Origin: Kiritimatiellia bacterium
Lineage (GTDB): Bacteria > Verrucomicrobiota > Kiritimatiellia > RFP12 > DVOR01
Assembly: GCA_017558005.1 (NCBI GenBank)
Contig: JAFYWN010000012.1
Coordinates: forward strand, 1-64,000
Direction: 5' to 3'
Length of the DNA stretch: 64,000 bases
Part shown: positions 298 to 5,513 of the stretch, one piece after another
Position numbering within the stretch: position 1 is the first letter of the stretch
Layout: the number at the start of each line of letters is the position of its first letter
Made by a program: the position numbers and the translations under genes
The notes under the pieces: model-generated
Told to the model about the DNA's origin: nothing
Databases searched by the model: none
What the model saw: only the letters and a program-made list of their open reading frames with translations

Positions 298-328
298 AAC
301 CCCGAATTTCACGAATTTACACGAATTT

Positions 329-361
329 TAGAAACCACGAAAGACGCGAAATACTCGAAAA
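329..361 (+). repeat. island boundary repeat, left copy
   Basis: TAGAAACCAC followed by AAATACTC within 33 bases. The same 33 bases occur inverted at 5514-5546 with 28 of 33 identities. The two copies are the outermost shared sequences of the repeat-island zone. Confidence 0.7.
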
Positions 362-415: not shown

Positions 416-484
416 TTCCGTCGCGCAACTCGGCGCTATGAGAAACCTTGCTACGCAAGCTTTCTCCCGAGTATGCCGACGGAA
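416..484 (+). repeat. hairpin module B (type I), copy B1
   Basis: Imperfect palindrome with nested stems TTCCGTCG/CGACGGAA, ACTCGG/CCGAGT, GAGAAA/TTTCTC and CTTGC/GCAAG. Relatives are at 773-871 (inverted) and 3027-3094. Stem differences among copies are largely compensatory, which indicates selection on a folded structure in RNA or single-stranded DNA. Confidence 0.8.
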
Positions 485-524
485 CGCTCACGATTCTTGG
501 CTACCGCAGCGCAGGACGATGTGT

Positions 525-560
525 GCAAAGGACTGCATGTATTTTCAACGCAAGAACGCT
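525..560 (+). repeat. AAAGGAC linker module A, copy 2
   Basis: Same module as at 373-407 with one inserted C. It leads directly into hairpin B2. Confidence 0.8.
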
Positions 561-568
561 AATCTTAC

Positions 569-634
569 AAATCCGCTCAACTCGGCGCGAGGAGTGTTCT
601 GCTACGCATTCCACTCCCCGAGTATGACGGATTT
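569..634 (+). repeat. hairpin module B (type II), copy B2
   Basis: 66-nt palindrome with stems AAATCCG/CGGATTT, ACTCGG/CCGAGT and GGAGTG/CACTCC. The inverted copy at 3126-3191 differs at nine positions. Six of these form three compensatory base-pair changes and the other three are unpaired. Confidence 0.85.
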
Positions 635-688
635 GCGCTACGCGAAGCATGTAAAGGACTGCCAGCGTGCGCTTTGCTCTCCACGGAG

Positions 689-742
689 GATGCGTTGGCT
701 TTTCGTGGGCGAAGCCTAGTGTTACGAAAAGCTCAACTCATC
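689..742 (+). repeat. hairpin module D, copy D1
   Basis: Stem arms GATGCGTTG and CTTTTCGT pair with ACGAAAAG and CAACTCATC, the last imperfectly. Other copies are at 2673-2726 and 2915-2968 (inverted) and 5069-5122. A tail with TAGTGTTAA follows here and at D4. Confidence 0.85.
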
Positions 743-772
743 TCCTCGTGTTTTTAGTGTTAAAAATAAGCG

Positions 773-871
773 TTCCGTCGGCATACTCGGAGGATATGCG
801 CTCGAGCACGAAGTGCTGGGAAAAAAGCTTGCACAGCAAGGTTTTTCATAGCGCCGAGTTGCGCGACGGAA
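773..871 (-). repeat. hairpin module B (type I), inverted copy B3
   Basis: Read on the minus strand it repeats B1 but carries an extra segment of about 30 nt, which itself contains a small hairpin (AGCAC/GTGCT). The inner stem has changed from GAGAAA/TTTCTC to GAAAAA/TTTTTT, so pairing is retained. Confidence 0.8.
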
Positions 872-921
872 AAAGACCTCGCGTAGTTCGCGGAAAATCC
901 ACATGCTGTCCTTAGAGGGCG

Positions 922-971
922 AGCAGTAATCGTGGGGCGCTGAAAGCGCCATCGCGCCGCGATTAGCTGCT
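922..971 (+). repeat. hairpin module F, copy F1
   Basis: Stems AGCAG/CTGCT, AATCG/CGATT and GGCGCT/AGCGCC around a GAA loop. The second copy is at 5406-5455. It is followed by a CGCG-rich second linker ending in AAAACC. Confidence 0.85.
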
Positions 972-1050
972 GTGCGCATCGCGTGGCTCGCGGAAAACCA
1001 ACAGGGCGCATCGCGCCGTTAACCGCACCGTAGGTGCGTAAAAGATATGC

Positions 1051-1056
1051 TATAAT
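1051..1056 (+). promoter_or_regulatory. probable -10 box of the unknown gene pair
   Basis: TATAAT sits at the right edge of the first repeat island, 75 bp before the start of the first unknown gene. No good -35 hexamer is visible 16-18 bp upstream. Confidence 0.5.
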
Positions 1057-1131
1057 GTGTGCGTTACCTTTTCGACCGTGAAGACCTTAAAGACCCGTAA
1101 GCCTACCTATTTGTAGGAGAAAGTGTAAAAA

Positions 1132-1944
1132 ATGTCATCTTTGACAACGCTTGATAACACGCAAGTCCGTGTGTTACGTTTTGCCCGTCGTTTGCTTTGC
1201 TTGCCCCTTCCCGAAGGTTTTGTGCCACCGGTGAAGGCTGATGCGCTCTCCGCATTGTCCACGCGCGTGGGGGATATTTTGGGCATTGAGCAACTCACCC
1301 CCAGGTTGGTCCGCTTGGGCTGTGCGCAGTGGATGATGGTCTTTTTCCATGGGCCAGAACGGTTGCATCGGCTCGCCACTTATGAGGCGGGCCAACCCCG
1401 CACCCTCTCCTACTCTCCTCGCGAGATGGCGATGGTGGTCGTTGATGGCCGACATCGTTTGATGTATGTCTCACTCTCCCACGCTCAAAAGTCTTTACGG
1501 TATCTGCTTTCTGCCTTCAATGGCACGCTCTTTCCAGGGCGTCCACTCGCTACGCCCTTTGAATCTTTATGGTTTGATTTGGGTATCTTACCTGCCTTAC
1601 AATTAGCCGATCGTCATCCTCAGGGGGATGGCTTACCGTGGCAACACCTCTCCTTAAAATCGGTCGCCTCACAGGAACCCGGCAGGGATCTGGCGTGGAT
1701 GACAAAGAAGTGGGGGCGAGATGGCTTTGAGGAGTTGGCCCAACAGGCCTTTTCGTGGCCGCGTCATCTTTGCGAAGTGGGGTTGGCCGTGCAGGCGATA
1801 GGGGCGAAAAAGACCTTTTCGGTGCATCTCTTTCATCGAAAAGGTATGCTCCGTGCGGCGTTGGCAGCGAGCCATCTTGATGCGTTGGCGGGATTGGTCA
1901 AGCTTTGTTCTAACGATGGTGAAAACCGCATGCGGGTGGAGTGA
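1132..1944 (+). CDS. hypothetical protein, first of an island-flanked gene pair
   Basis: 270 residues, not recognised. No signal peptide, membrane segment or catalytic motif stands out. The protein is soluble and rich in Leu, Arg and Pro, with a basic N-terminus and several His-containing stretches such as VVDGRHRLMYVSLSHAQKS. The start is an ATG 75 bp after a TATAAT box, with GGAG in the leader. The next gene begins within a few bases of the stop codon, so the two are probably co-transcribed. Both sit between repeat islands that share the same structured modules. Codon use is GC-rich and looks like real coding sequence. It may belong to a mobile or accessory unit; no function is assigned. 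Confidence 0.65.
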   Translation: MSSLTTLDNTQVRVLRFARRLLCLPLPEGFVPPVKADALSALSTRVGDILGIEQLTPRLVRLGCAQWMMVFFHGPERLHRLATYEAGQPRTLSYSPREMAMVVVDGRHRLMYVSLSHAQKSLRYLLSAFNGTLFPGRPLATPFESLWFDLGILPALQLADRHPQGDGLPWQHLSLKSVASQEPGRDLAWMTKKWGRDGFEELAQQAFSWPRHLCEVGLAVQAIGAKKTFSVHLFHRKGMLRAALAASHLDALAGLVKLCSNDGENRMRVE

Positions 1945-1949
1945 AGGTC

Positions 1950-2624
1950 ATGGAGATGGAGATTTACGAATTGCCGAATGTTGTCGAAGTGGTTGGCCCC
2001 ACCCCTTTGCCCCAGCACCCAAGGCCCTTTGAGTGTTCCCTCACGCCGAATGGCAAGGTCTCGTGGTTCGTCAGACCGCAGGGGCGGTTGGAGGTCTTTC
2101 AGGTGGCGAATCGGGTCCGCACCCAACCGGAAGTGCACTGTGTGTTGTTGGACCTGCCGAAGGTGCCGGGCGCACTCACGCGGGTGGATCTGAGGAGTTG
2201 GGCAGAAGAGGTGGAAGGGCGTGTGGGACGGCCCTTGGTCTTGGCCAACCCCGAGGCGCGCTATCCCTGTGGGGAGGAGGCGTGTTGCCGTTGCCATCAG
2301 GGGACGCAACTCCGTGAGGCGGAGGAGCGCTTTGAGACGTTGGTCCAACGCGTGGAGTCGGCGGATGCACTCATTGACCAGGCCTTTAAACAGCTGAAGC
2401 CCAGGGATCGTAGGATGTTGCGACGGTGGGCGACCCAGGAGGACCCGGTGAAACCGCAGACGCCTATCCGCCATAAGGTGTTGGCCGCCGAGATGAAGAT
2501 TCAGGAACGCCAAGTGCGGCGTATCTTGAGGAAGGCCGAGGCGGAGAACGGGGCGATCTTTGCGCAATTGAAGCAGTTGCGCACCTTCCGTTTCAAGCGT
2601 ACCGGCGCCTATGAGGTGCGGTAG
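1950..2624 (+). CDS. hypothetical protein with C-terminal sigma-region-4-like HTH
   Basis: 224 residues. The first half is not recognised. A Cys cluster (CGEEACCRCH) near residue 105 could bind metal. The last 90 residues look like a helix-turn-helix of the sigma-70 region 4 kind: LKPRDRRMLRRWA, then VLAAEMKIQERQVRRILRKA. This suggests DNA binding or transcription control. The chosen ATG has GGAG eight bases upstream; a GTG at 1941 overlapping the previous stop is an alternative. It forms an apparent two-gene operon with the upstream unknown gene and ends directly against the second repeat island. The regulatory role is inferred from the HTH-like segment only. Confidence 0.6.
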   Translation: MEMEIYELPNVVEVVGPTPLPQHPRPFECSLTPNGKVSWFVRPQGRLEVFQVANRVRTQPEVHCVLLDLPKVPGALTRVDLRSWAEEVEGRVGRPLVLANPEARYPCGEEACCRCHQGTQLREAEERFETLVQRVESADALIDQAFKQLKPRDRRMLRRWATQEDPVKPQTPIRHKVLAAEMKIQERQVRRILRKAEAENGAIFAQLKQLRTFRFKRTGAYEVR

Positions 2625-2672
2625 CGGCAGAGCCGCAGGACTGCATGTGAGTTAACACTACAAACACGAGGG

Positions 2673-2726
2673 GATGCGTTGAGCTTTTCGTAACACTAGG
2701 CTTCGCCCACGAAAAGCCAACGCATC
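2673..2726 (-). repeat. hairpin module D, inverted copy D2
   Basis: Same module as 5069-5122 in opposite orientation, with a perfect outer stem GATGCGTTG/CAACGCATC. It is followed by the linker GAAGCATGTAAAGGAC. Confidence 0.85.
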
Positions 2727-2780
2727 TGCGAAGCATGTAAAGGACAGCCAGGGAGGATTTTTCCGCGAGCTACGCGAGGC

Positions 2781-2834
2781 GCACGACCGCACCACGGCGC
2801 GATGGCCTGCGGCCCCGTGGATGCTGGCTCGTGC
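2781..2834 (-). repeat. hairpin module E, inverted copy E1
   Basis: Nested stems GCACGA/TCGTGC, CCACGG/CCGTGG and a GGCC/GGCC tip. Near-identical copies are at 4865-4918 and 5289-5342 on the other strand. Confidence 0.85.
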
Positions 2835-2914
2835 TTTTGCGAAGCATGTAAAGGACAGCATGTGGGCGCCTGCGGCGCAGGACTGTATGTGAGTTAACAC
2901 TACAAACACAAGGG

Positions 2915-2968
2915 GATGCGTTGAGCTTTTCGTAACACTAGGCTTCGCCCACGAAAAGCCAACGCCTC
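2915..2968 (-). repeat. hairpin module D, inverted copy D3
   Basis: Third copy of module D, one base different from D2 in the outer stem (CAACGCCTC). It has the same linkers on both sides as D2. Confidence 0.85.
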
Positions 2969-3026
2969 TGCGAAGCATGTAAAGGACAGCCAGTGTGGAT
3001 TTTACCGCGAACTACGCGAGGTCTTT

Positions 3027-3094
3027 TTCCGTCGCGCCCCTCGGCGCAAGAACGATTCTGCTTTGCAGTCTCGTTCCCGAGGATGCCGACGGAA
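3027..3094 (+). repeat. hairpin module B (type I), copy B4
   Basis: Keeps the outer stem TTCCGTCG/CGACGGAA, but the second stem is CCTCGG/CCGAGG instead of ACTCGG/CCGAGT. The inner part is GAACGA/TCGTTC plus CTGC/GCAG. Sequence has changed while pairing is kept. Confidence 0.8.
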
Positions 3095-3125
3095 CGCTCA
3101 CGCAAAGCGAGGATAGGCGCAGCGC

Positions 3126-3191
3126 AAATCTGTCATCCTCGGGGAGCGGAATGCGCAGCATAACGCTCCTAGCGCCGAGGTGAGCAGATTT
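3126..3191 (-). repeat. hairpin module B (type II), inverted copy B5
   Basis: Minus-strand partner of 569-634. The homology continues through the flanking linkers to about 3255, including GCAAGAACGC and the AAAGGAC-type linker. Confidence 0.85.
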
Positions 3192-3263
3192 GTAAGATCT
3201 TGCGTTCTTGCGCATCCTCGTAGCACCATCCTGGCAGTTCTTTACGTGCTTCGCACGGGGACG

Positions 3264-4447: not shown

Positions 4448-4864
4448 ATTAACCTTTAATCAAAGGAATCAAACGAAACATTCTCCAATTTCAATTACAT
4501 TCTACTCCATCTCTAACACTTCTGCAAGAAAAAAGAGCCGCAGGCGCCGTTAAGGGCGCGATGCGCCCTGGTTGACGAGCTGCGCTCGTGGAGAGCGCTG
4601 GCTAGGGAGCTGGGGTGAGGCGGGTGCTTAAGAGGCTTCGCGGGGTGGCGGTACGTCCTGTGGGAGGGCGGTCAACTCGAGGGCCATGCCTTCGCGGAGC
4701 GAAGGCCGCAGAACCTTTGTGGGTTTAACTGTTCATGACCGTACGGAAGGTAGGCTTGAAAGCCACCTGCGGTCCTCACCAGCCGAGGGGATAACTGTCA
4801 CAAAGGCAGAAATGAAGCCCCGTGGAGAATTAACCACATGCAGTCCTTTACATGCTTCGCAAAA
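4448..4864. other. noncoding DNA between pdxB and the third repeat island
   Basis: No credible gene. Bases 4545-4585 repeat, in inverted order, the GGCGCGATGCGCCCTG stretch seen near 1000-1020. Bases 4688-4806 form a strongly foldable segment listed separately. The island modules start near 4841 with the linker CAGTCCTTTACATGCTTCGC. Confidence 0.6.
4688..4806. ncRNA. candidate structured RNA element
   Basis: A hairpin GCCTTCGC/GCGAAGGC (4688-4706) is followed by a domain closed by CCTTTGTG (4714-4721) and CACAAAGG (4799-4806). Inside are a hairpin with GACCG/CGGTC, AGGT/ACCT and GGCT/AGCC under a TGAA tetraloop, and a second hairpin CCTC/GAGG. The multibranched layout resembles a folded RNA, but it matches no riboswitch or ncRNA class known to me. 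The strand is uncertain and no downstream gene is close enough to be an obvious target. Confidence 0.35.
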
Positions 4865-4918
4865 GCACGAGCCAGCATCCACGGGGCCGCAGGCCATCGC
4901 GCCGTGGTGCGGTCGTGC
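4865..4918 (+). repeat. hairpin module E, copy E2
   Basis: Same nested stems as E1 and E3. Preceded by the CAGTCCTTTACATGCTTCGC linker and followed by a CGCGTAGTTCGCGG linker. Confidence 0.85.
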
Positions 4919-4970
4919 GCCTCGCGTAGTTCGCGGAAAACCTAGTGGCTTCGCCACTGTTTACAGTAGG

Positions 4971-5021: not shown

Positions 5022-5068
5022 TTAGCTCTTACAAAGCGCACGCTAGCAGTCCTTTACGTGCTTCGCAA

Positions 5069-5122
5069 GATGCGTTGGCTTTTCGTGGGCGAAGCCTAGT
5101 GTTACGAAAAGCTCAACGCATC
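5069..5122 (+). repeat. hairpin module D, copy D4
   Basis: Perfect outer stem GATGCGTTG/CAACGCATC and inner stem CTTTTCGT/ACGAAAAG. The tail TAGTGTTAACTCACA is shared with the inverted copies D2 and D3. Confidence 0.85.
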
Positions 5123-5238: not shown

Positions 5239-5288
5239 TTATGCAAGTGAGGAGTGTATGCCGGCAGTCCTTTACATGCTTCGCAAAA

Positions 5289-5342
5289 GCACGAGCCAGC
5301 ATCCACGGGGCCGCAGGCCATCGCGCCGTGGTGCGGTCGTGC
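5289..5342 (+). repeat. hairpin module E, copy E3
   Basis: Essentially identical to 4865-4918, including the linkers on both sides. Confidence 0.85.
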
Positions 5343-5405
5343 GCCTCGCGTAGTTCGCGGTAAAATCCTCCCTGGCAGTCCTTTACATGCTGTCCTTAGA
5401 GGGCG

Positions 5406-5455
5406 AGCAGTAATCGTGGGGCGCTGAAAGCGCCATCGCGCCGCGATTAGCTGCT
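5406..5455 (+). repeat. hairpin module F, copy F2
   Basis: Repeats 922-971 together with the preceding GCTGTCCTTAGAGGGC stretch and the following CGCG-rich linker. Confidence 0.85.
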
Positions 5456-5513
5456 GCCCGCATCGCGTTGCTCGCGTTAAATCCACACTGGCAGTCCTTT
5501 GCACACGTCGTCC

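Follow-up and report, generated by a model that had tools for sequence, protein, structure and literature searches.

The window analyzed here is a 64,000-nt stretch at the start of contig C12 (JAFYWN010000012.1) of a gut bacterium of the class Kiritimatiellia whose genome (G000) spans 2.05 Mb in 37 contigs and is ~90% complete. Near its left end lie five palindromic modules, B1 to B5, for which an earlier reading of the sequence, hereafter the original prediction, had proposed that substitutions in the stems are compensatory and that the folded form is maintained. All five belong to a family of nested hairpins that we call A/B modules. Their unpaired elements, the 3' bulged A and the 5' loop CGCNA, are nearly invariant, and their stems vary while remaining paired across long divergence.

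A/B modules are ~73 nt long and come with two outer-stem types, A (AAATCCG) and B (TTCCGTCG). Both the sequence and a covariance model (CM) built from 13 copies placed the five modules where they had been predicted. B1 (414-487, + strand, CM 88.4 bits) has the type B outer stem (TTCCGTCG/CGACGGAA) and the inner stem GAGAAA/TTTCTC. B2 (566-638, + strand, 92 bits) has the type A stem, AAATCCG/CGGATTT. B3 (770-873, - strand, 48.6 bits) is of type B and carries a ~30-nt insert 3' of the inner hairpin, which the original prediction had not described. B4 (3025-3097, + strand, 85.5 bits) is a type B module with the CCTCGG/CCGAGG variant, and B5 (3122-3194, - strand, 93.9 bits) is a type A module with the compensated pairs CTG/CAG, CCTCGG/CCGAGG, and GCG/CGC.

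The fold shared by these copies begins with an outer stem of 8-9 bp, a bulged C on the 5' side, a 3-bp helix (KCA/TGM), and a bulged A on the 3' side. A middle stem, [AC]CTCGG/CCGAG[TG], leads to CGCNA(T), a loop confined to the 5' side, beyond which the inner part runs through a 6-bp stem, a 2x2 mismatch, and another 4 bp to a triloop. Each of the five window modules folds better as single-stranded DNA (ssDNA) than 200 of 200 dinucleotide shuffles (z -4.9 to -6.9). Unpaired columns are among the most conserved: A at column 61, C at column 24, and A at column 26 in 27/27 copies, and C at column 11 in 24/27. Three inner-stem types each combine with both outer-stem types, so outer and inner parts have probably been exchanged between copies by recombination. 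A leader (TTTAACGCNAGNACGCTA...) precedes A/B hairpins, as seen on the + strand before B1 (TTTAACGCAAGAACGCTATCTC, 391-413) and B2 (TTCAACGCAAGAACGCTAATCTT, 544-565), and a ~15-nt spacer, AAAGGACTGCATGTG, separates units. Also on the + strand are the inter-unit spacer GTATGCAAAGGACTGCATGT (369-389) and a tail plus spacer, GCGAAGCATGTAAAGGACTGC (642-662).

Between B2 and B5 there are exactly nine differences, as originally counted, and the three two-sided pair changes among these are real. The remaining three positions had been called unpaired, which is not strictly so for one of them: in most copies, column 36 (C in B2, A in B5) is paired to column 46, and B2 has a mismatch there. For B1, B3, and B4, the inner stems (GAGAAA/TTTCTC, GAAAAA/TTTTTT, and GAACGA/TCGTTC, respectively) read as described.

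Covariation in A/B stems and the D control

Covariation was assessed in 29 distinct A/B copies over 28 stem pairs, 17 of which carry two-sided changes. Paired cells make up 96.4%; with the frayed end pair left out, there are 183 two-sided cells versus ~21 that are broken or wobble. The covariation score was 0.534, compared with 0.184 in shuffles and at most 0.172 when partners were slid. Pair 32-50 alone shows all four Watson-Crick pairs. For a tree-aware null, we simulated structure-free substitutions along the tree with random ancestral choice, in 400 replicates. Among 2628 column pairs, only three reached E<0.05, and these top three are all stem pairs: 32-50 and 36-46 in the inner stem and 15-60 in the middle stem. 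An earlier test with 40 replicates had given four stem pairs at this threshold, along with five linked non-stem pairs. With these additional copies, the proposal that pairing is maintained beyond drift holds.

No outer-stem pair was significant under the 400-replicate null. The A/B outer-stem switch is one linked block that adds no independent support for maintained pairing, despite being the most impressive-looking compensation, and it therefore carries the least weight. Within an outer type, the two-sided share of stem differences climbs with divergence, through 0.19, 0.33, and 0.67 to 0.78. The expectation that compensated changes would outnumber uncompensated ones as copies were added is thus borne out overall but not among near-identical copies, whose differences are mostly uncompensated. 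A mutation thus starts on one side of a stem, and with time the paired states prevail.

The same arrays contain other palindromes, types C, D, and E, that hold positions equivalent to those of A/B. Type D hairpins occur in the window at 685-742 (inverted, - strand), 2672-2729 (+), 2914-2971 (+), and, as part of a second array, 5065-5122 (-). Across 27 distinct D hairpins from A/B arrays, we counted one two-sided cell and 28 unpaired cells, and the covariation score (0.013) did not stand out from shuffles (0.011). The D middle stem is nearly invariant in sequence, and at divergence equal to that of A/B the two-sided share is 0.03-0.08. This sequence-conserved family is a good negative control for the covariation in A/B.

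Type C hairpins (CCACGG CGCGAT GGCC...CCGTGG A TGC; 2778-2838, +, and in the second array 4861-4921 and 5285-5345, both -) share the architecture and clearly have the A/B-like one-sided loop and bulged A. Type E hairpins (TAATCGCGG CGCGAT ... CCACGATTA) lie at 915-972 (-) and, in the second array, at 5402-5459 (-). In the related genome G010, ~95 nt of unrelated DNA interrupt one D hairpin (L055:1121-1300) past its inner hairpin. Degenerate repeats like CACGAATTTACACGAATTT and CACGAAATACTC precede many arrays (window 300-360; L012, L035).

Distribution, turnover, and RAYT genes

A search of the genome and its relatives with the covariance model, as the original prediction had suggested, gave 26 matches in G000, 8 in G010, and 6 in G015, and none in 14 other congeners. 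These copy counts are approximate, as several copies lie at contig ends and contigs C2 and C33 overlap. A/B modules are thus patchy in the genus (3/17 genomes), and 42 other genomes of the order yielded one weak match at chance level. G010 is the yak-rectum metagenome-assembled genome RGIG9925; locus L057 is identical to its contigs. The D family occurs in the same three genomes as A/B, with several of its matches partial. Outside this set, the exact spacer pattern occurred in one record only, again G010. Viral contigs gave six isolated matches to a 16-base spacer, and searches of phages and plasmids for the modules found nothing. A strict descriptor scan returned A/B copies only and none in shuffles; a loose scan was discarded, as it matched at the shuffled (chance) rate.

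Two variants of the module were seen in these collections. In chimeric modules (L035, L038, L040), the inner hairpin is followed on its 3' side by an insertion made up of another hairpin, AGCACTTYGTGCT, and CTCGRGCGCATAT. A subtype in G015 (L050, L052, L054) has a TCGCGGACGC...CCGCGA middle stem and a short GGCACTTCGTGCC inner hairpin, with leader and architecture unchanged.

The units are extragenic, lie in both orientations, even inside one array and in convergent gaps, and form tandem mosaics with shared spacers. In the window, pdxB has arrays on both sides. In G010, the 1.5 kb examined to each side of pdxB (79% identical) contains no unit; the partial pdxB loci of G015 have none. Unit positions turn over between species and are not fixed.

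Inside the array that holds B1 to B5, two overlapping genes (1132-2624; 270 and 227 aa) have no Pfam match. The first is ordinary and single copy, and 10 of 16 other congeners have relatives of it; the C-terminus of the second weakly resembles a sigma factor (E 0.0016, below cut-off). We rejected this pair as the element's own transposase, given its single copy and its relatives in module-free congeners. Elsewhere, two Fic-domain proteins are encoded between hairpin arrays (L102:2761-3774 and L099:1905-2789).

G000 encodes six RAYT-like proteins (RAYT-type Y1 transposases), at C14:84142 (locus L112), C14:54771 (L164), C14:28220 (L165), C15:56635 (L015), C32:2187-3113 (L110), and C27:9580-10494 (L163). 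Their N-terminal part matches NCBIfam REP_Tyr_transpos in 9/9 aligned members, the first member falling below the curated cut-off, and also matches the TnpA-REP structure 4er8. By BLAST, five of the six genes each have their own repeat family to the left and right; the sixth, located on C15, has GCTTTAGCCTTTGCCTATCTC in inverted copies, as seen by eye. A RAYT-repeat economy therefore exists in this cell. These RAYTs were also tested as direct mobilizers of A/B, and none is flanked by A-E units.

Over their last 150 residues, these RAYTs resemble DprA, whose family is known to load RecA onto single-stranded DNA. The profile matched chains 5mll, 4ljr, and 4ljk (E ~6e-5) and 3uqz (E 0.0067), and one member matches PF02481 at E 0.005. 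Across the class, 86 of 240 genomes encode matches to the profile, up to 12 per genome, some of them covering the C-terminal domain only. Judging from these profile matches, RAYTs with a DprA-like C-terminal domain appear widespread in the class. We found no description of such a fusion in the literature searched. Several congeners also have the DprA-like C-terminal domain without the HUH transposase part (L180-L184, L188-L190).

Candidate mechanism and alternative explanations

On balance, and with modest confidence, we interpret the B modules as members of a REPIN-like repeat family restricted to the genus, in which non-autonomous hairpins outside genes must fold as ssDNA to be copied. The folded strand would be recognized by an ssDNA enzyme, most plausibly a Y1 (HUH) transposase of the RAYT type. 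A copy with a broken stem could persist but would not propagate, and new copies would be founded by foldable lineages only. Under such a filter, lineages that split long ago would differ by compensated changes, and recently made copies by uncompensated ones. Selection acting as the units propagate is a better fit than a host function. None of the RAYT loci examined is flanked by A/B modules, so a RAYT as their mobilizer is an inference. The original prediction had allowed the folded form to be RNA or DNA. DNA is favored, on small numbers: stem mismatches include 7 G-T/T-G and 9 A-C/C-A, so wobble is not preferred, and with G-T as rare as A-C nothing favors RNA.

Several observations weigh against a REPIN-like repeat moved by a RAYT. 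None of the six G000 RAYTs is flanked by A-E units, and the RAYT loci scanned with the covariance model in other genomes, which are incomplete, also lack a flanking A/B module. Conversely, the flanks of A-E units yielded no RAYT, no pseudogene, and no other transposase; among the 73 proteins near units, the 25 of 114 Pfam families listed include no transposase; and no RAYT was found in G015, a genome that is 75% complete. There is no GTAG/GTGG foot beside the stem, and, unlike in a classical REPIN, the arms are not small REP hairpins themselves. Neither target-site duplication nor precise excision was seen. Finally, two further orthologous gaps hold units in both species, of different types, and such shared occupancy suggests that array sites may be long-lived.

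Pairing could also be restored mechanically, without selection. Near-perfect palindromes are known substrates for template switching, and intrastrand switching during replication, which copies one arm onto the other, would likewise raise the two-sided share with age. However, the D hairpins have long unbroken stems in the same arrays, yet two-sided changes are nearly lacking in them at matching divergence, and general arm-copying would have hit them too. It should also remove unpaired features, but the bulges, one-sided loop, and 2x2 mismatch keep their places in nearly all A/B copies. The D contrast and the fixed bulges therefore argue against purely mechanical correction, which we consider unlikely. 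A phylogenetic artefact is very unlikely. If two divergent subfamilies were palindromic by descent, block inheritance could pass for compensation, consistent with the complete linkage of the A/B outer-stem switch and its lack of significance against the tree-aware null; however, the inner pairs 32-50 and 36-46 and the middle pair 15-60 stay significant under that same null, 32-50 passes through every Watson-Crick state, and all inner types occur with both outer stems.

A stable fold and real covariation would also be expected of a structured RNA, such as a regulatory RNA or a 3'-end or processing element, conserved for its fold. We think this improbable: no Rfam family matches A/B, the sole chance match, to a microRNA, scoring 23 bits where the gathering score is 200; an RNA made from a fixed strand should favor G-U, whereas the few stem mismatches show no wobble bias; units point both ways within one array and in convergent gaps; most congeners have no copies; and no T-run follows the hairpin on either strand. 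A further possibility is that the modules are recombination sites of the integron attC kind, serving a tyrosine recombinase in folded form, with the genes between arrays as cassettes. The imperfect hairpin, extrahelical bases, and variable terminal part are all reminiscent of such sites, and arrays do flank accessory genes, e.g. those for Fic proteins. Yet the module ends lack RYYYAAC...GTTRRRY, most units have no gene between them, and the first gene of the pair at 1132-2624 is an ordinary single-copy gene with the relatives described above. Judging from the module ends and the gene layout, we give this explanation scarcely any credence.

Returning to the REPIN-like interpretation, we can extend it only tentatively. 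The Kiritimatiellae may harbor a large radiation of RAYT-DprA proteins, each enzyme with its own hairpin family. A/B would then be the fold-recognized substrate of one unassembled or lost enzyme that reads the bulges and the one-sided loop while the stems drift in compensated fashion, and D would be read by its stem sequence. If true, this radiation would tie hairpin-processing transposases to a RecA-loading protein family. The arrays of one genome hold a shape-keeping family (A/B) beside a sequence-keeping one (D), which makes selection on a DNA fold observable. Their contrast allows a direct test of what an ssDNA enzyme reads, as well as of the idea that selection acts on REPIN-like repeats as they are copied.

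Comparison with known hairpin repeats

Compensatory changes are common in REPINs (Bertels and Rainey 2011; PMC3116915). A/B modules resemble REPINs as extragenic, multi-copy, clustered hairpins of similar size (71 bp between ends in the GI doublet) with conserved ends, a more variable middle, and compensatory changes that keep the hairpin; REPINs are thought to move as ssDNA with a RAYT (PMC3116915). The 26, 8, and 6 matches lie between genes, as expected of a multi-copy extragenic palindrome. A/B differs in its nested bulged stems, one-sided 5' loop, and fewer copies seen. It also lacks a GTAG/GTGG tetranucleotide at the 5' stem base (the flanks read TCTTAC|AAATCCG and TCTCTTG|TTCCG, and on the opposite strand GCGC|AAATCCG and GAGC|GTTCCG); in place of two inverted hairpin-bearing REP units it has a single nested hairpin in the predicted fold; and no cognate RAYT flanked by the same repeat was found among the six of G000 or at the RAYT loci scanned in other genomes, the assemblies being incomplete. 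Because no foot motif, REP doublet, or cognate RAYT was found, we do not file A/B as REPINs.

The group 2 REPs of E. coli are likewise imperfect palindromes arranged in mosaic arrays with linkers (BIMEs), and their unpaired bulge is required for TnpA-REP action; they are ~35-40 nt long with a GTAG foot, whereas A/B is ~73 nt with none (PMC8266576). Integron attC sites share recognition by fold, extrahelical bases, and a variable terminal hairpin, but their core motifs RYYYAAC/GTTRRRY are absent from A/B ends. REPtrons of the TnpA-Y1 superfamily (Quentin et al. 2018; PMC6006769) are similar in having several RAYTs per genome with their own flanking repeat families; the RAYTs here differ in their DprA-like C-terminal domain, and DprA is unmentioned in that study. 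A/B modules thus belong near REPINs, in which compensatory change was already reported, and what is new in detail is that the hairpin is nested and asymmetric, that it contrasts with a D family conserved in sequence, and that it occurs against a background of RAYT-DprA proteins.

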